A stretch of DNA of 16,785 bases, from NCBI GenBank assembly GCA_024710825.1, contig JANJUA010000439.1, forward strand, positions 1-16,785, given 5' to 3'. The notes under the pieces are model-generated. The model saw only the letters and a list, made by a program, of their open reading frames with translations. It made no database searches and was not told the DNA's origin. The DNA is from Solirubrobacteraceae bacterium. Lineage in GTDB: Bacteria > Actinomycetota > Thermoleophilia > Solirubrobacterales > Solirubrobacteraceae. Position numbers and translations under genes: made by a program. Positions 2,131 through 9,319 of the stretch are shown piece by piece; position 1 is the stretch's first letter, and every line of letters begins with the position of its first letter.

Positions 2131-4050
2131 CTACTCGGGCTCGTTCGCCGGCGGGGCGGTCAGGATCACCGGGCAGGCGGCCTTCGTCACGACGTACTTC
2201 GTGACGTCGCCGAGGAAGTTGTCGCGCGGCCCGGCGCGCCCGCCGAGCAGCGCCCCGCCGCGGATGCGGGACGGCTCCTCGGCGGCCATGACGATCGCCT
2301 CCACCCCTCGCCGGCGCGCCTCCTCGACGATCGCCTGGCCGGCCCGCCGCGCCCGCACCGTGGCCGTGGCCACCTCGACGCCCTCGTACTCCTCGCCCAC
2401 CGCCTTCGCGCGCGCCAGCGCCGCCCGCGCGCGCTTGAGCTGCTCGTCGGGCAGCCGCGCGTCGATCGGGAGGGCCATCGGGACCTCGAACACCCACAGC
2501 GCCTCGATCGTCGGCCCCTCCCCCGTAGCCTCGTCGACGACCTCCTCGGAGGCCAGGCGCCCGGCCGTCTGCACGATGTCGTCGTCCAGGGCGGCGCCGA
2601 AGATCGGCACGAGGATCGAGCCGTAGGCGGTGGTAAGCCGCGTGTCGGCCCGCAGCGCGGCGGCGGGGACCGTCACCCGCCTGAGCACGGGCTTGCCCTC
2701 GGTGGTGCGGTAGACGAGGTACAGGGCGATGCCGACGAGCATCCACCCCGCCCCGACGTAGCGCGCCGAGTCGTGGAAGACCAGCACGCTGACGAACAGC
2801 GCGGCCGAGATGACCGCCCCCAGCGCAGCGGGCACGGGAAGCCGACCCACCGAGAGCGGCATCCGGTACGGCCGTCGCCGGTCCGGCTCGGAGAAGCGCA
2901 GCTTCACGACCGACAGGTGGGCGATGGTGAACGCGAGGGTCGCCCCGAAGGCGTAGATGCCGATCAGCGTCGCCACGTCCGCGGGGATGACGAGCGCGCA
3001 GGCGAGCACGGCGGAGATCCCGATGACGACGTATGGGGTCGAGCGCGTCGGGTGCAGGCGGCCGACCACGCTCGGGATCTGACGGTTCGTCCCGAGCTGA
3101 TATGCGAGCCGCGACAGCCCGAGCATCGCCGCCTCCGCCGCCGCGATCAGCGTGATCGTCGCGACGACCGCCACGACGTAGCGCATGGTGTCCGCCAGCC
3201 AGGCCGGTTCGAGCTGCCCGATCACGCCGAGCACGGGCGCGTCGAGGAAGCGGTCGGCGAGCAGCGTCTGGCCGTCGGTGACCGGCAGGGCGCTGACCGC
3301 CACCAGCGCGATCCCGAAGTACACGAGCGTCACGGTCGCGCTCGCGCTGCCGACGAGCCGCTTGAGCCCGGCGCGGCCCACGCCCACCTCGCCCGCCAGC
3401 CCGGAGGCCGACTCGAGGCTCGTGAACGCGACGGTGGCGATCGTCAGCGCGAAGACCAGCTCGTCCCAGCGCGGCGCCGTGCCCAGGTCGATCTGGCGCG
3501 TGACGAGCTCCGCGTCGAAGAACAGCGCGAGGCCGAGGCCGATGAGCAGGAGCTGGATCGCGATGTCCGCGACGACGAGGACGAGCACCCGGTGCGACCG
3601 CCGCAGGGAGAAGCCGCGAACGCTGCGCACGGCGACCCAGCCCACGATCGCCATCGCCACGACCACCTCGAGCAAGCCGTCCGCGAGCGGCCGCCAGAAC
3701 GCCTGCAGGTAGTTCGTGGCCGACAACGCGCAGATCGCGATGAGGATCACGTAGTCGAGCAGCACGGCCCAGCCGGCGACGAAGCTCGTCAGCTCGTCGA
3801 AGGCGTAGCGCGCGAACACCGTCGCACCGCCGCGGTCCTGGTGCAGCGAGGCGCCCTCGACGTACGTCATCGCGGTGAGCACGAAGTACAGGCCGGCCGC
3901 GAGGAAGACGAACGGCGTCATGCCGAGCGCGTGCAGGGCGACGACGCCGAGCGAGAAGTAGATCGCGCTGGCGATCGGCGTGTAGATGATCGCGAACAGC
4001 CTTGGGGAACCCAGCGAGCGCTCGACGATCCGCCGCTCGCCCTCGCGCAT
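2131..4050 (-). CDS. APC-superfamily transporter with C-terminal UspA domain, second copy
   Basis: A 639-aa inner-membrane protein. Residues up to about 450 carry roughly twelve hydrophobic segments of APC type; from about 476 (YGSILVPIF) to 630 there is a cytoplasmic universal-stress domain. It is a diverged paralogue of the upstream 637-aa transporter: both keep the TM1 pattern IYx(S/A)LG, a Tyr at the equivalent TM1 position, a TM6 Thr-x-x-Glu and a loop RLHPxxxTP. Here the classical APC sequence after TM6 (AEE...IP) is lost. The ATG at 4050 is chosen over a GTG at 4074 because GGAGGA lies 7 nt upstream and because the ATG shares one base with the preceding stop (TGATG). Automatic annotation would probably say amino acid permease. 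The Usp fusion and RCK neighbours instead suggest a KimA/KUP-like cation transporter (inference). Confidence 0.87.
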   Translation of the reverse strand: MREGERRIVERSLGSPRLFAIIYTPIASAIYFSLGVVALHALGMTPFVFLAAGLYFVLTAMTYVEGASLHQDRGGATVFARYAFDELTSFVAGWAVLLDYVILIAICALSATNYLQAFWRPLADGLLEVVVAMAIVGWVAVRSVRGFSLRRSHRVLVLVVADIAIQLLLIGLGLALFFDAELVTRQIDLGTAPRWDELVFALTIATVAFTSLESASGLAGEVGVGRAGLKRLVGSASATVTLVYFGIALVAVSALPVTDGQTLLADRFLDAPVLGVIGQLEPAWLADTMRYVVAVVATITLIAAAEAAMLGLSRLAYQLGTNRQIPSVVGRLHPTRSTPYVVIGISAVLACALVIPADVATLIGIYAFGATLAFTIAHLSVVKLRFSEPDRRRPYRMPLSVGRLPVPAALGAVISAALFVSVLVFHDSARYVGAGWMLVGIALYLVYRTTEGKPVLRRVTVPAAALRADTRLTTAYGSILVPIFGAALDDDIVQTAGRLASEEVVDEATGEGPTIEALWVFEVPMALPIDARLPDEQLKRARAALARAKAVGEEYEGVEVATATVRARRAGQAIVEEARRRGVEAIVMAAEEPSRIRGGALLGGRAGPRDNFLGDVTKYVVTKAACPVILTAPPANEPE

Positions 4051-4223
4051 CAGCGGGTCCTCCGGGCGATCCACAGCCGCCCGACGCCCACGGCGACGAA
4101 CATGACGCCGAGCAGCACGCCGATCGCGACCGGCCCTCCGCCGGCGGTCAGGGTGCGGACGACGAGCGCGAATCCGAGGACGACGAGCGCGACGGACAGG
4201 ACGTTCGTGGCGGCGCCGTGCAT
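4050..4223 (-). CDS. 57-aa two-helix membrane protein between the two transporters
   Basis: Not recognised as a named family. The 57 residues hold two hydrophobic helices: about 8-23 (VLSVALVVLGFALVV) and 33-50 (AIGVLLGVMFVAVGVGRL). A short Gly-rich turn (TAGGG) lies between them and a basic end (WIARRTR) follows, predicting a helical hairpin with a positively charged cytoplasmic tail. The ATG follows the preceding transporter stop by 2 nt, with a purine-rich GAAGGG about 6 nt upstream, and the stop shares a base with the next ATG (TGATG). GC-rich third positions and coupling on both sides argue that it is real. A regulatory or stabilising subunit of one or both transporters is a reasonable guess; nothing in the sequence proves it. 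Confidence 0.72.
   Translation of the reverse strand: MHGAATNVLSVALVVLGFALVVRTLTAGGGPVAIGVLLGVMFVAVGVGRLWIARRTR
4058..4063 (-). promoter_or_regulatory. Strong ribosome binding site deciding the APC-Usp start
   Basis: GGAGGA on the minus strand, 7 nt before the ATG at 4050. It lies downstream of the competing GTG at 4074 and so favours the shorter protein. Confidence 0.7.
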
Positions 4224-4225
4224 CG

Positions 4226-6139
4226 TCAGCCCTTCGCCGCCGCGGTGAGGAGATCCTCGTCGAGCCCGGCCGACCCGGGCGACGACGCGACGATCACGCG
4301 GCACGGCCGCTCCGAGAGGACCGTCTCCACGGTCCTGCTGAACAGCGTTCCGCCGCCTCGCGGCGTGAGCGCCATGACGATCGCCTGGGCCCGCATCGCC
4401 CGTGCCTCGGCGACGAACATCGAGCCGGCCTGGCCCGCCCGCACCTTGACCCAGTGGCCGGTGACACGGCGCCCACCCTGCAGGCGCGCCCGCTCGACGA
4501 GCTCCTGCGCGGCCATCTCCTGCTCGGGCAGCGACGCGCCGATCGGCGACGACTGCGGCACGACGATCGCCACGAGCACGTGGATGCCCCGCCGGCGCCG
4601 TGCGGCGAGCCGGATCGCCGTCCCCATCGCCGCCTGGCTGTAGGTCGGCGTGTCGAACGCGACGAGGATCGAGTCGTACTCCGCCTCGTGGTCGACGACC
4701 GGCTGCGGGATGGCGATCTTGCGGGTGCTCGTCAGGTCGAGCCCCTGGCGCCGGCGGTAGACCACGTAGACGACGATGCCGGTCGCCAGCCAGGCGGCGG
4801 CGACGATCGTCACGACCGGGTTGCGCACCGCCAGCACGGTCAGCGCGGCGAAGGTGACCAGGCCGCCGACGACGGCGAAGAGCGGCACGTCGTAGCCGCG
4901 GATCGTGACGTTGCCGGGGCCTCTGTAGGGCCGCTCGACGTCCTTGACCTTGCCGCGCAGGCGGATGAGCGCGACGTGCGCCACGGTGAAGGAGAGCATC
5001 GCCCCGAAGGCGTAGATGTTGCCCAGGAACACCGCCTCGCCGGGGACGACCATCAAGCAGGCGAGGGCGCCGAAGATCAGGATCCCCAGCCACGGCGTCC
5101 CGTAGCGCGGGTGCAGCCGGCGCAGGCGGTCGGGCACCTGGCGGTGGATGCCCATCGAGTACACGAGCCGCGAGACGCCGATGACGCCCGCGTTCGTCGC
5201 CACGATCAGGATGGTCGCGGCGAGGACGCCGACGTACAGCTCGGCGGGCGTCTGGAGGAAGCCGAGGTCCATGTTGGAGACGACGCCGAGGATCGGGTTG
5301 TCCGCGAACCCGCCGTCCTCGCCGGACTCACCCAGCAGGGTGAAGTGCTCGCCGTCGGCACCCTGCTGGACGGGCAGCGCGGACAGCGCCACGAACGGCA
5401 GGATCGAGTAGACCGCGAGCACGGCGACGACGACCCGCTTGATCGCGGCCGGGATGGTCTTGCGCTCGTCCTTGGCCTCCTCGGCCATGTTCGAGATCGT
5501 CTCGATGCCCGTGTAGGCGAGCATGCACAGCGGGATCGCCAGGAAGAAGTCGCCCCACGACGGAGCGACGCCGAGATCGACGTTCTCGACGAGCGTCTCG
5601 GGCGAGAGCACGAGGAAGACGCCGAGCGCCACGAGCAGGATCTGCGTGCAGAAGTCGATGACCGCGAGGGCCACGTTGACGCCCGAGGACTCCTTGACGC
5701 CGCGGACGTTGACGAGGCTGAGAACGACGATCACGCCGATGCCGAAGAGGACGTCGCCCGGCGCCCGGGCCAGGTCGTCCCAGAAGACGCCGCCCAGGTA
5801 GTGCGCGACGAAGAACGCCGACGTGGCGATCGTCGCCGTGTACGTCAGCAGAGAGCCCCAGGCGGCGAAGAAGGAGGCGAACTCGTTGAAGGCGCGGCGG
5901 GCGAACGAGCTGGAGCCGCCGGCCTCCGGGTACATCGCGGTCGCCTCGGCGTAGGTCGCGGCGGTGAGGATGAAGATGAAGCCGCTGACGAGGAAGACGA
6001 TCGGCGTGAGGCCGAGCGCCAGCGACGCCACGAGGCCGAGCGCGTAGTAGATCGACGACCCGACGTTGCCGTAGGCGGTGGCCGAGAGGGCGTTGACGCC
6101 CAGGACCCGCTGGAGCCCGTGGAGACGGCGTTCGGCCAT
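4226..6139 (-). CDS. APC-superfamily transporter with C-terminal UspA domain, KimA-like
   Basis: A 637-aa inner-membrane transporter. About twelve hydrophobic segments occupy residues 12-462 and a cytoplasmic UspA-type domain runs from about 488 (YDSILVAFDTPTYSQAA) to 620 (CRVIVASS). TM1 reads NALSATAYG (16-24) and TM6 reads AYTGIETISNMAEEAKDERK (208-227), the conserved APC signature. The UspA fusion, the length near 600-640 aa, and the Tyr23 and Thr210-x-x-Glu213 positions parallel the potassium/proton symporter KimA of Bacillus subtilis (comparison from memory). The Asp expected in TM1 is Asn16 here. Amino acid transport remains possible. The ATG at 6139 lies 14 nt after the stop of the 85-aa gene, without a Shine-Dalgarno sequence. 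A TAGCAT there overlaps that stop and could be a -10 element for a nearly leaderless transcript. Confidence 0.88.
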   Translation of the reverse strand: MAERRLHGLQRVLGVNALSATAYGNVGSSIYYALGLVASLALGLTPIVFLVSGFIFILTAATYAEATAMYPEAGGSSSFARRAFNEFASFFAAWGSLLTYTATIATSAFFVAHYLGGVFWDDLARAPGDVLFGIGVIVVLSLVNVRGVKESSGVNVALAVIDFCTQILLVALGVFLVLSPETLVENVDLGVAPSWGDFFLAIPLCMLAYTGIETISNMAEEAKDERKTIPAAIKRVVVAVLAVYSILPFVALSALPVQQGADGEHFTLLGESGEDGGFADNPILGVVSNMDLGFLQTPAELYVGVLAATILIVATNAGVIGVSRLVYSMGIHRQVPDRLRRLHPRYGTPWLGILIFGALACLMVVPGEAVFLGNIYAFGAMLSFTVAHVALIRLRGKVKDVERPYRGPGNVTIRGYDVPLFAVVGGLVTFAALTVLAVRNPVVTIVAAAWLATGIVVYVVYRRRQGLDLTSTRKIAIPQPVVDHEAEYDSILVAFDTPTYSQAAMGTAIRLAARRRRGIHVLVAIVVPQSSPIGASLPEQEMAAQELVERARLQGGRRVTGHWVKVRAGQAGSMFVAEARAMRAQAIVMALTPRGGGTLFSRTVETVLSERPCRVIVASSPGSAGLDEDLLTAAAKG

Positions 6140-6499: not shown

Positions 6500-8209
6500 T
6501 CAGCGCCGGTCGCGCTTGCCCCTCTTGCCCTTGGCCTTCTTGGTGCTCTTGGCCCTCTTCGCCACCTTCACGGTCCGCACGTGCGTCGACGACCTCGTGC
6601 CGCTGCGGCCGACCGCGGAGATCGAGATCCGGTACCTGCCGGCCCTCTTCATGCCCAGGCGCGCGCTCACCGTGCCGGCCGCCTTCGCCTCGACGGTGAC
6701 CGTCCGCACGACCTTCCACCTGCGCTTCACCCGCCGGCGCACGGTGAACGTGACGGTCGACGGCTCGGAGACGCGCAGCGACGCGCGGCCGTTGCGCCGA
6801 ACCCTCACCGTGTCGAGCGCGGGCGCGGTCGACCCGCGCTCGCTCGCCGACGCGGCCGGCTGCGCCGGCACCACGGGACCGGAGCCGCCGCCCGCGCCAC
6901 CTTCGTCCGGCTTCGGCGTGGACACGACGGAGCCGAACGCCAACGGGACCGACGCGCTCTGGTCGACGTCCGCCATCCCGTGGGCGCGCATCGTCGAGAC
7001 GTAGCACTGCACGACGGTGCAGTTGACGACGTTGCCGGAGGCGTCCGTGTAGGTAGGGCGCACGGTCAGCGTCGTGGCGAACGTGCCGGTGGCCGACAGC
7101 CCGGTCCCGAGCGACAGCCACTTCGAGTCGCCGTACGCGCCGGGGTTGGTGTTGCCCGACTGCGGCCCGAACACGACGTAGATGCCGGGAGCGGTGGGTG
7201 AGTAGCCGACGCCCTGCACCGTCACCGTCGTCGGCGCGGTGGTCGACAGGTTGGAGATCGGCGTGGCCGCGAGGCCGATCCCGCCCGGTCCGGGCCCGGG
7301 ATCGGGCCCCGGCCCCGGCCCGGGTCCGGAATCCGGCTCGCCGAAGGCGATGTCCTGCGTGACGATCAGGTGCCCGTCGACGGGGTTGGAGTGCGCGGGC
7401 CAGGCGATGACCTGACAATCGGTGACCCCGCAGTCGACCGCGCCGCCGTCCAGCGTGCCCGTCAGCGCGATGCTCGCGCTGAACGCGCCCGAGGGCGACA
7501 GCGGCGCCTGGCCTGCGGTCTCCGACGGAGCCGCGGGGTTGATCCACTTCGATGCGCCCGTGACGATGGCGCCACCTCGGACCGCGGCTTGGGCCACGTA
7601 GAAGCCCGGTTGGGGGAGCGGCGCGCCGGAACCGGGCGCCGGCGGGTACGACTGCTCGAAGTCGTCACCGGAGACGGTCACGGTCTCGCCCGCCGGATCG
7701 AGGTCCGTGCTCTTGCTCAGCCACAGCGGGGGGCCGAAGGCAAGCGGCTCCGTCGCCTCGATGAGCGCGCCGTCGACCGGGTTGGAGTGTGCCGGCCAGG
7801 CGATGACGAGGCAGTCCGCGACACGACAGTCCACCGCGCCCTCGTCGAGAATCCCCGACAGCGCGAGGCTGGCGCTGAAGTCCCCGGACGGCGCCAGCGG
7901 CGCTTGCGTGGCGGTCTCGCTCGAGGCGCCCGGGTTGATCCACTTCGCCGTACCGGTCACCACGGTGCCGCTCACGATCGCCCCCTGGGCGATGTAGAAG
8001 CCGGGCGTCGGAGACGGCGGCCCCGCGGCGGGCGTGTACGACTGCTCGAAGCCGGTCCCGGACACGGTCACGGTGACGCCGTTCGGGTTCAGCGCGCTGC
8101 CGACCGACACGGCAAGCTCCGGAGCGGCCGACACCGCCGTGGCGGCGGTCGCCAGGGCGGCCAGGGACAGCAGCAGCGCGAGCAGGGCGCGCCTGATTCT
8201 GTGAAGCAT
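6500..8209 (-). CDS. Secreted protein with three Ig-like repeats (Cys-X4-Cys each) and basic tail
   Basis: A 569-aa exported protein. Residues 1-28 are a Sec signal peptide (RIRR, a Leu/Ala core, then AVSA). Repeats 1 (about 31-159) and 2 (161-291) are clear duplicates: VTVSG.GFEQSY, PGFY(I/V)AQ, KWINP, SETA..APL.PSG.FSAS, then AVDC..(A/T)DC.VIAWPAHSNPVDG. A Pro-Gly linker (295-310) precedes a more divergent repeat 3 (311-427, VTVQGVGYSP...NCTVVQCYV). Each repeat has one Cys pair (128/133, 260/265, 397/402), likely a disulphide. The pattern recalls neocarzinostatin/Ig-like beta-sandwiches that accompany HtaA domains in actinobacteria. Residues 467-550 look like another beta-rich domain, and 550-569 is a Lys/Arg tail. 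There is no LPXTG or membrane anchor. GAAGGA lies 4 nt before the ATG. It is divergent from the HtaA-type gene and shares its putative iron-box region. A ligand cannot be named. Confidence 0.85.
   Translation of the reverse strand: MLHRIRRALLALLLSLAALATAATAVSAAPELAVSVGSALNPNGVTVTVSGTGFEQSYTPAAGPPSPTPGFYIAQGAIVSGTVVTGTAKWINPGASSETATQAPLAPSGDFSASLALSGILDEGAVDCRVADCLVIAWPAHSNPVDGALIEATEPLAFGPPLWLSKSTDLDPAGETVTVSGDDFEQSYPPAPGSGAPLPQPGFYVAQAAVRGGAIVTGASKWINPAAPSETAGQAPLSPSGAFSASIALTGTLDGGAVDCGVTDCQVIAWPAHSNPVDGHLIVTQDIAFGEPDSGPGPGPGPDPGPGPGGIGLAATPISNLSTTAPTTVTVQGVGYSPTAPGIYVVFGPQSGNTNPGAYGDSKWLSLGTGLSATGTFATTLTVRPTYTDASGNVVNCTVVQCYVSTMRAHGMADVDQSASVPLAFGSVVSTPKPDEGGAGGGSGPVVPAQPAASASERGSTAPALDTVRVRRNGRASLRVSEPSTVTFTVRRRVKRRWKVVRTVTVEAKAAGTVSARLGMKRAGRYRISISAVGRSGTRSSTHVRTVKVAKRAKSTKKAKGKRGKRDRR
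7280..7327 (-). repeat. Pro-Gly low-complexity linker
   Basis: Alternating Gly-Pro codons between Ig-like repeats 2 and 3, a flexible extended spacer. It is a coding low-complexity tract and not a regulatory repeat. Confidence 0.7.
7337..8119 (-). repeat. Tandem internal duplication (about 390 bp unit, two copies)
   Basis: The two copies cover about 7733-8119 and 7337-7729 and encode Ig-like repeats 1 and 2. They are related at both protein and DNA level, for example a shared GGGTTGGAGTG followed closely by GGCCAGGCGATGAC near 7383 and 7781. A third, more divergent unit lies at about 6929-7279. Confidence 0.75.
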
Positions 8210-8233
8210 CCGGTCCTTCTCGGGGTCGGTTAG

Positions 8234-8247
8234 TTAGGTGGCCCTAA
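8234..8247. promoter_or_regulatory. Iron-box-like palindrome 1 (DtxR/IdeR-type operator)
   Basis: TTAGGTGGCCCTAA is a perfect TTAGG-N4-CCTAA dyad. An extra TTAG directly precedes it (8230-8233), nearly giving the tandem half-sites of the 19-bp DtxR/IdeR consensus TTAGGTTAGGCTAACCTAA, whose bases 6-19 have the same TTAGG-N4-CCTAA form. It lies 24 bp upstream of the ATG of the Ig-repeat protein. The regulator is not encoded in this window, so iron control is inference. Confidence 0.65.
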
Positions 8248-8271
8248 GTCGAGGCGCGGGACCGTAGCACG

Positions 8272-8285
8272 TTAGGGTTGCCTAA
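8272..8285. promoter_or_regulatory. Iron-box-like palindrome 2 overlapping the HtaA-type start codon
   Basis: TTAGGGTTGCCTAA is a second perfect TTAGG-N4-CCTAA dyad, 38 bp centre-to-centre from the first. Its last base is the A of the ATG at 8285. A bound repressor would cover the start of transcription or translation. Confidence 0.65.
8273..8278 (+). promoter_or_regulatory. Possible -10 element for a leaderless HtaA-type mRNA
   Basis: TAGGGT fits the actinobacterial -10 pattern TANNNT and ends 6 nt before the ATG at 8285, the usual geometry for leaderless transcripts. No convincing -35 is visible. The same bases contain AGGG, 7 nt from the ATG, which could instead be a weak Shine-Dalgarno sequence. 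Confidence 0.35.
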
Positions 8286-9319
8286 TGCAGACACGCATCC
8301 CACTGGCCGCCATCGCCGGCGCCGCGCTCGTCGCGGCCACCCCGGCGGCGGCCGATACCACCCTGAAGCTCGACCGCGCCGCGGGCTCGCCCGTGCGCGC
8401 CGTTGCTCCCGCCACCGCCGACGGCCGCACCGTCACCCTGCCCGTCGCCTCGACCTCCGGGCCGAACGCGAAGGGCGTCGTCAACGTGCGCCACCGGGGC
8501 GGGCTGCGCATCGGCGGCACCCGGCTCACGGCCGTCCGGGCGCGCATCACCGACGGAGGCGCGCGGATCAGCGCCAAGGTCGGCAAGCGCCGGGCGCACG
8601 TCTTCGCCGTGCGCGGCGGCAAGGTCACCATCGGCGACGACGGCGGCGTCGAGCTGCGTCGTGGGGCGCTGCGCCTCACGCGCGCGGGCGCCAAGGCCCT
8701 CGACAGGCGCGCCGGCCGGCGCGTCGGCACCGTCACGGTCGAGAGCGCTCCCGCCGTCCCGGACACGGCGCGCGCCGTCACCGGCGGCCAGCTCTCGTGG
8801 GGCTACAACCCCACGCTGCGCAACTCCTTCGGGCGGATCTTCGAGCCGCAGCTCGGCGGCGGCGTCGCGGTCGCGGCCGACGGCACGTACACGTTCCCGG
8901 TCACGGGCACCACATACGATCCGGAGTCGCGCAAGGGCACCATCACCAGCGCGGGCAGCAGCCTCCGCATCGGCTACACGGCCGGGCCGGCCCAGCCCAC
9001 CGAGGCGAACGGGATCTGGGTGACGCTGCGTGACGTCACGGTCAACCTCGACGGCGCCGACGGCACCATCGAGGCCGTCTCGGACTCCGGCTTCCACGGC
9101 AGCGCTCCGGTCGCCCAGGCGAAGCGGACGATCGCCACGCTCCGGGTCGGCGAGCCGACGGTGAGCGGCTCGACCTACACGTGGACGGCGGTGCCGGCCA
9201 CGGTCGCGCCCGGCGGCATCGAACTGGTCTCCGAGTTCAAGGACATGCCCGGGCGGCCGCCGCTGGGCGACGTCCGCGCGCTGGACCCGGTCACGATCAC
9301 CGCGACGCTCGCTCCCTGA
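8285..9319 (+). CDS. Secreted HtaA-domain (haem-binding-type) protein
   Basis: A 344-aa exported protein. The signal peptide is residues 1-23 (QTR, a hydrophobic core, then PAAA). Residues 165-340 resemble an HtaA domain: GGQLSWGYNPTLRNSFGRIF (167-186), TYTFPVTGTTYD, KGTITSAGSSLRIGY (218-231) and ATLRVGEPTVSGSTYTW (285-300). Residues 24-152 look like an incomplete HtaA-like beta region with VVNVRHRGGLRIGG (65-78). HtaA proteins of corynebacteria bind haem at the cell surface through a conserved Tyr. Here the Tyr position of the usual SFRxY motif appears to be Ser181, and the His of the usual GHxG segment is missing in the main domain, so haem binding is uncertain. There is no membrane anchor or LPXTG motif. 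It is the only plus-strand gene in the window, divergent from the Ig-repeat protein and probably under the same operators. Confidence 0.82.
   Translation: MQTRIPLAAIAGAALVAATPAAADTTLKLDRAAGSPVRAVAPATADGRTVTLPVASTSGPNAKGVVNVRHRGGLRIGGTRLTAVRARITDGGARISAKVGKRRAHVFAVRGGKVTIGDDGGVELRRGALRLTRAGAKALDRRAGRRVGTVTVESAPAVPDTARAVTGGQLSWGYNPTLRNSFGRIFEPQLGGGVAVAADGTYTFPVTGTTYDPESRKGTITSAGSSLRIGYTAGPAQPTEANGIWVTLRDVTVNLDGADGTIEAVSDSGFHGSAPVAQAKRTIATLRVGEPTVSGSTYTWTAVPATVAPGGIELVSEFKDMPGRPPLGDVRALDPVTITATLAP

Follow-up and report, generated by a model that had tools for sequence, protein, structure and literature searches.

The window analysed here, a stretch of 16,785 nucleotides of a Solirubrobacteraceae bacterium (assembly GCA_024710825.1, contig JANJUA010000439.1), carries two divergently transcribed genes for predicted secreted proteins, an HtaA-family protein and a protein with three neocarzinostatin-fold domains, whose starts are separated by a gap at 8210-8284 (Table 1). 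The initial annotation, made from the DNA letters and the open reading frames, had recognized the former as an HtaA-type secreted protein, in agreement with its CR fold and with a PF04213 match that exceeds the curated cut-off, with a degenerate N-terminal CR-like region preceding the C-terminal CR domain. The two perfect TTAGG-N4-CCTAA dyads it had reported in the gap are both present, and the last base of dyad 2 is the A of the HtaA ATG at 8285, so that this dyad overlaps the start codon. With up to two mismatches allowed, the window holds only these two matches, while the mean expected by chance is 0.38 and 11 of 200 shuffled windows reach two matches.

Table 1. Divergent gene pair of the window, its dyads and the other perfect dyads of the assembly
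Feature	Position	Strand	Remarks
HtaA-family predicted secreted protein, 344 amino acids	8285..9319	+	PF04213, E 4.9e-15
Predicted secreted protein, 569 amino acids	6500..8209	-	three neocarzinostatin-fold domains
Neocarzinostatin-fold domains	7733-8122, 7340-7732, 6932-7273	-	followed by a further beta-domain and a basic tail
Dyad 1, TTAGGTGGCCCTAA	8234..8247	.	IdeR/DtxR-type half-site, upstream of the neocarzinostatin-like gene
Dyad 2, TTAGGGTTGCCTAA	8272..8285	.	half-site overlapping the HtaA start codon
Dyad on contig C183			4 base pairs (bp) from the start of the second HtaA gene (minus strand)
Dyad on contig C371			8-14 bp before the start of the third HtaA gene (GTG or ATG)
Dyad on contig C172 (L009)	7472-7485		between rpsD and a lytic-transglycosylase-like gene

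Actinobacterial promoters can have a -10 element of the form TAnnnT, for which TAGGGT (8273-8278), inside dyad 2 and just 5' of the ATG, is a candidate. The HtaA transcript may thus start at about the ATG and be leaderless, with the operator lying over the -10 element. A strict scan of 8150-8350 found no sigma-70 consensus promoter, and no terminator was found in the same interval.

Dyads in the genome and in related bacteria

In the whole assembly (3,038,914 bases in 444 contigs, 90.22% complete) the perfect dyad occurs five times and its backward control not at all, which shows a rare motif that is not scattered at random. With one mismatch allowed, 11 sites stand against 5 in the control, and therefore only perfect dyads are informative in this genome. 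Four of the five, including the two of the window, lie at starts of HtaA genes, and each of the three HtaA genes found by PF04213 has a perfect dyad at its start; at five dyads in 3.04 Mb, the chance of a perfect dyad in one given 100-bp stretch is about 0.00016. The dyad on C183 is common to the second HtaA gene and a divergent PNPOx/DUF2470 (HugZ-like) gene, the NCBIfam matches of whose product are below the curated cut-offs.

Relatives have the dyad too, at loci of HtaA, transporter and HugZ-like genes. We compared 20 HtaA loci from 17 genomes of the class (14 of the same family, three of the same order), hand-picked from places with HtaA and not by the motif, L103 being chosen for a neocarzinostatin-like domain there. 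Eleven of these loci hold 18 perfect dyads, while 29 permuted arms average 0.10 perfect sites with a maximum of 2. In a pool of loci that includes the five sites of the own genome and one locus picked for its FecCD genes, the N4 spacer gave 25 dyads, while none was found with any of the other spacer lengths between 0 and 11. Sites with one mismatch number 39 in 19 of the 20 loci, against a mean of 1.24 sites and maxima of 12 sites and of 8 loci for permuted arms; outside the class, 16 loci carrying the neocarzinostatin-like domain hold 17 such sites in 11 loci, the maxima for permuted arms being 12 sites and 9 loci, and one-mismatch dyads are thus weak evidence.

The same-genus genome G053 keeps the divergent pair. 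Its gap holds TTAGGTGACCCTAA and TTCGGGTGCCCTAA, the frame opposite the neocarzinostatin-like gene matches the N-terminus of the HtaA relative P0015, and a further perfect dyad ends on the possible ATG of a FecCD permease gene. Four perfect dyads accompany a gene set in G111 that consists, in order, of HtaA, a neocarzinostatin-like protein, an HmuV-type ATPase, a FecCD permease, a binding protein with the haem-binding IsdE as best NCBIfam match, and a HugZ-like protein (the NCBIfam matches of this set are below the curated cut-offs). In L103, L124, L136 and L137, two or three half-sites, perfect or with one mismatch, follow in tandem at 14-34 bp from start to start (in L103 at 6754 and 6768), an arrangement in which several single dimers might stand in for a two-dimer box.

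For Saccharopolyspora erythraea it is described that IdeR can bind a half-site as one dimer, with the 14-bp TTAGGNNNNCCTAA as proposed consensus and a predicted target at the nuo cluster (PMC8464063). Both window dyads match this consensus exactly, as two CCTAA repeats 4 bp apart. The full 19-bp iron box, TTAGGTTAGSCTAACCTAA, has four CCTAA repeats, and in the better direction it differs from the sites at 8234 and 8272 by 7 and 6 mismatches respectively. Across the 25 dyads the average is 6.08 mismatches (range 4-8, two with only 4), compared with 6.43 for random flanks and spacer; since the surroundings are on average no closer to the full box than random sequence, the full box was rejected and the sites are taken as half-sites. 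The match of the arms to half-sites of the DtxR/IdeR iron box, given in the initial annotation, stands, with the correction that each site is a half-site for one dimer and no full box. The dyads look like single-dimer iron-repressor sites. While the consensus is identical to that of S. erythraea, here the half-sites lie at the haem loci of relatives, in genomes whose examined DtxR-family proteins are without the Met/Cys ligands of IdeR.

The neocarzinostatin-fold partner and its gene neighbours

The second protein of the pair had been described as Ig-repeat (immunoglobulin-like) without a named family. It can instead be placed in the neocarzinostatin family by fold and by a match to PF00960 (Neocarzinostatin) at 25 bits, with a cut-off of 25; VIA-align likewise ranks this family top, while Foldseek with the full-length protein returns generic multi-domain Ig matches. 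The neocarzinostatin fold is known chiefly from carriers of antitumour antibiotics. With the enediyne apoproteins neocarzinostatin and macromomycin (PF00960) the partner's domains share the fold, and one Cys pair of those proteins has an aligned counterpart in the domains. In contrast to them, the proteins described here are multi-domain, occur in haem loci and have a conserved His, present in 30 of 41 domains of the subfamily, at a position where neocarzinostatin has Ala in the alignment.

PF00960 is a poor detector, as the class search with it missed the window's own protein and the G111 protein has no match; for this reason a domain profile, A3, was used, which includes three domains from a Curtobacterium locus and leans towards such relatives. 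Among 396 genomes of the phylum, 16 have the A3 domain, 22 have PF04213 and 12 have both; with G111, from the class search, the domain is present in 17 actinobacterial genomes. In 14 of these it lies in the same frame as HtaA, adjoins it and/or shares one fetched locus with HmuTUV-type genes: the latter accompany it in 11 (G111, G485, G494, G447, G528, G637, G421, G557, G504, G543 and G610), and in G000 (the own genome), G053 and G397 it occurs with HtaA alone. The linkage is absent from G561, G618 and G615 (a weak match, the locus of which was not fetched). These counts include related genomes that are not independent and have no random-gene control behind them, and the HmuTUV labels denote similarity to one Curtobacterium set, a score that cannot separate haem from other FecCD-type cargo. 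As a separate observation, a neocarzinostatin-like gene of G618 stands under a full-length iron box, TTAGGTAAGGCTAACCTAA (L113:8969-8987), with no HtaA or HmuTUV-type genes in the 16 kilobases (kb) fetched.

HtaA and the domain are joined in one frame in seven genomes. In Curtobacterium sp. PhB115 (L031), one gene run contains HmuTUV together with two genes for neocarzinostatin-like proteins and one for an HtaA fusion, and the Micromonospora-like G485 repeats the layout of the window, a neocarzinostatin-like gene divergent from an HtaA fusion, with two near-complete 19-bp iron boxes between them. Among the best 120 of 124 relatives of the G485 fusion, 18 have both PF00960 and PF04213; ten are from Micromonospora, and 13 are called HtaA domain-containing protein, five being unnamed or hypothetical. 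In the open-licence PMC literature, no paper linking neocarzinostatin to HtaA, and by title none linking it to bacterial haem uptake or iron acquisition, was found among the matches listed.

A candidate metal-controlled haem-acquisition pair

In corynebacteria, haem uptake by HtaA/ChtA and HmuTUV is under DtxR control. For the window we consider it likely that the gap serves as a divergent promoter region in which a metal repressor of the DtxR/IdeR family has two operators, each for a single dimer, and that the two genes encode a surface pair for haem acquisition. When iron is plentiful, one dimer would occupy each TTAGG-N4-CCTAA half-site, dyad 2 covering the -10 element and start of the HtaA gene and dyad 1 lying a short way upstream of its neocarzinostatin-like neighbour. 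Under iron scarcity the two operators would be freed, and HtaA and the three-domain neocarzinostatin-fold protein would be exported as surface parts of a route for haem or a haem-like tetrapyrrole, to which the two other HtaA proteins and the HugZ-like enzyme, whose genes stand under this dyad at other places of the genome, would also belong. The regulatory idea of the initial annotation was mostly right, and its interpretation overall is partly supported.

The results on the regulator, the HtaA ligand, the spread of the domain and the transporter, as well as two on the dyads, weigh against this reading. Iron preference has been tied to sulfur ligands and the combination of Asp/Asn with Glu to MntR (PMC10317159). 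A search for a DtxR/IdeR homologue finds three DtxR-family proteins in the own genome, C70, C142 and C148, and a canonical IdeR is not among them in this approximately 90%-complete assembly: Met10 with Cys102 occurs in none of the three, nor in any of the 31 sequences examined out of 37 places that 13 genomes of the family have. In an alignment with IdeR, C70 shows the Asp/Glu set tied to manganese sensors (Asp at position 10, Glu at 102); C142, the closest to IdeR in sequence, carries Gln at 10, Asp at 102 and Ala at 105, and C148 has lost nearly all metal ligands, the primary sites of both being eroded. 'Iron' as the sensed metal is therefore inferred from the genes controlled, and one of these paralogues would be the binding protein.

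This opens the way to a reading in which the dyads are sites of a manganese-sensing, MntR-type DtxR member and the pair forms a surface module controlled by manganese or by a mix of metals. Fifteen of the 31 sequences show the exact MntR set of Asp/Asn with Glu (PMC10317159), Glu at 102 goes together with Asp, Asn or Glu at 10 in 26, and the C70 type is present in all 13 genomes, including both of the window's genus. The genes under the dyads are however HtaA, HmuUV-type, HugZ-like and FecCD permease genes, no manganese transporter turned up at a dyad, though no search was aimed at one, and G485 combines the same divergent layout with near-complete 19-bp iron boxes, which together make manganese control unlikely.

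Two side observations concern the DtxR-family genes. The short C148 protein (L014:455-943), also found in G053 (L176), combines its eroded ligands with a SAPTVHE recognition helix and could be a metal-blind regulator able to read the same half-site; the adjoining frame (L014 965-1438) is Fur-like by eye. In both genomes of genus g19 (G260:C1:276934 and G248:C26:6865), the DtxR gene most similar to C142 lies approximately 11-13 kb from the HtaA-Hmu locus.

An axial Tyr in helix alpha-1 is described as haem ligand of the CR domain (PMC12494546) and is present in 87 of 94 CR domain rows covering the column. The window HtaA has Ser at this position, with which the Tyr of the ChtA CR chain 9o0k also aligns, at a weak E of 0.022, and the same-genus orthologue (P0015/L121) has Ala; by this residue the window HtaA does not qualify as a haem-binding CR domain. 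With the Tyr lost, the HtaA/neocarzinostatin-like pair might have no haem ligation of its own and grip the surface of a haemoprotein, like the corynebacterial haemoglobin receptor HbpA, which has the same fold, or bind another iron complex, a reading we regard as rather doubtful.

The domain itself is sparse, being found by A3 in 3 of 299 class genomes compared with 46 for HtaA, and most HtaA systems therefore work without it. PF00960 matches five of the 299. Four of these (G083 above the cut-off and, with lower scores than that, G130, G191 and G201) lack matches to both HtaA and the A3 profile, and even with one mismatch allowed their 3-kb loci contain no dyad. Such genomes, the PF00960 match of the partner only at the cut-off, the commonness of Ig-like folds with the generic Ig-type Foldseek result, and a possible additional action of dyad 1 on the HtaA gene would fit a generic secreted scaffold or adhesin which shares the promoter by chance, the iron link being that of HtaA alone. 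Against a chance partner stand the company of HtaA and/or HmuTUV-type genes that the domain keeps in 14 of the 17 genomes, same-frame HtaA fusions in seven of them and in 18 proteins among the best 120 of 124, and the recurrence of the divergent two-box layout in G053 and G485, and we find it improbable.

As to the dyads, the 16 domain loci outside the class hold only two perfect ones, and the fifth perfect dyad of the own genome, on C172, is an exception outside any obvious iron gene; the lytic-transglycosylase-like protein next to it has a signal-peptide-like start.

The suggestion that the module may feed a transporter elsewhere was not borne out in the assembly, incomplete as it is, where no clear HmuUV or HmuTUV was found. 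For the only strong FecCD permease the best NCBIfam profile is BtuC, at 258 bits and thus under the cut-off of 461, and the protein looks vitamin-B12-like; its identity to HmuU-type permeases is 40-43% too, and it may yet have a role with haem. One neighbouring gene product reads like a binding protein and is 27% identical to HmuT across 313 residues, and neither Pfam nor NCBIfam gives a match for it; the other neighbour is a CobB/CbiA-like frame by eye, and the contig has no dyad within two mismatches. Elsewhere in the window, seven further proteins scanned are of housekeeping types; two neighbouring amino-acid permeases (2131-4074 and 4226-6139) each have a fused universal stress protein domain and are adjoined by at least one TrkA-type regulator.

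Secreted CR-domain HtaA proteins and metal-repressor boxes at the promoters are shared between the window and the known systems, the corynebacterial one and the Streptomyces coelicolor htaA-hmuTUV locus, for which DmdR1 control is predicted (PMC12161575), and HmuTUV and HugZ-type partners are shared in the relatives of the window. The differences are half-sites in place of 19-bp boxes, the neocarzinostatin-fold partner, an assembly without a clear HmuUV and an HtaA without the axial Tyr. In this bacterial family half-sites look like the operator at work on haem genes, in genomes that apparently lack a canonical IdeR. This bears on the occurrence and role of half-sites in other genomes, which a passage of a 2023 review names as a matter still for investigation (PMC10317159).

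Of greater interest is the partner. Close relatives of this neocarzinostatin-fold protein accompany haem-uptake genes, which suggests, judged by sequence and gene order, that this fold also serves bacterial haem uptake. Quite tentatively, neocarzinostatin-fold domains may be a widespread and unrecognised haem module of Actinomycetota that uses the enediyne cleft, with the conserved His near its rim, to bind haem or to pass it among HtaA, HmuT and the cell; the antibiotic carriers would have been recruited from such domains, and in the window's genus the partner would have taken over ligation from the Tyr-less HtaA. Stand-alone neocarzinostatin-fold proteins would thereby gain a hypothesis for their job, one that is testable with one purified protein and hemin.
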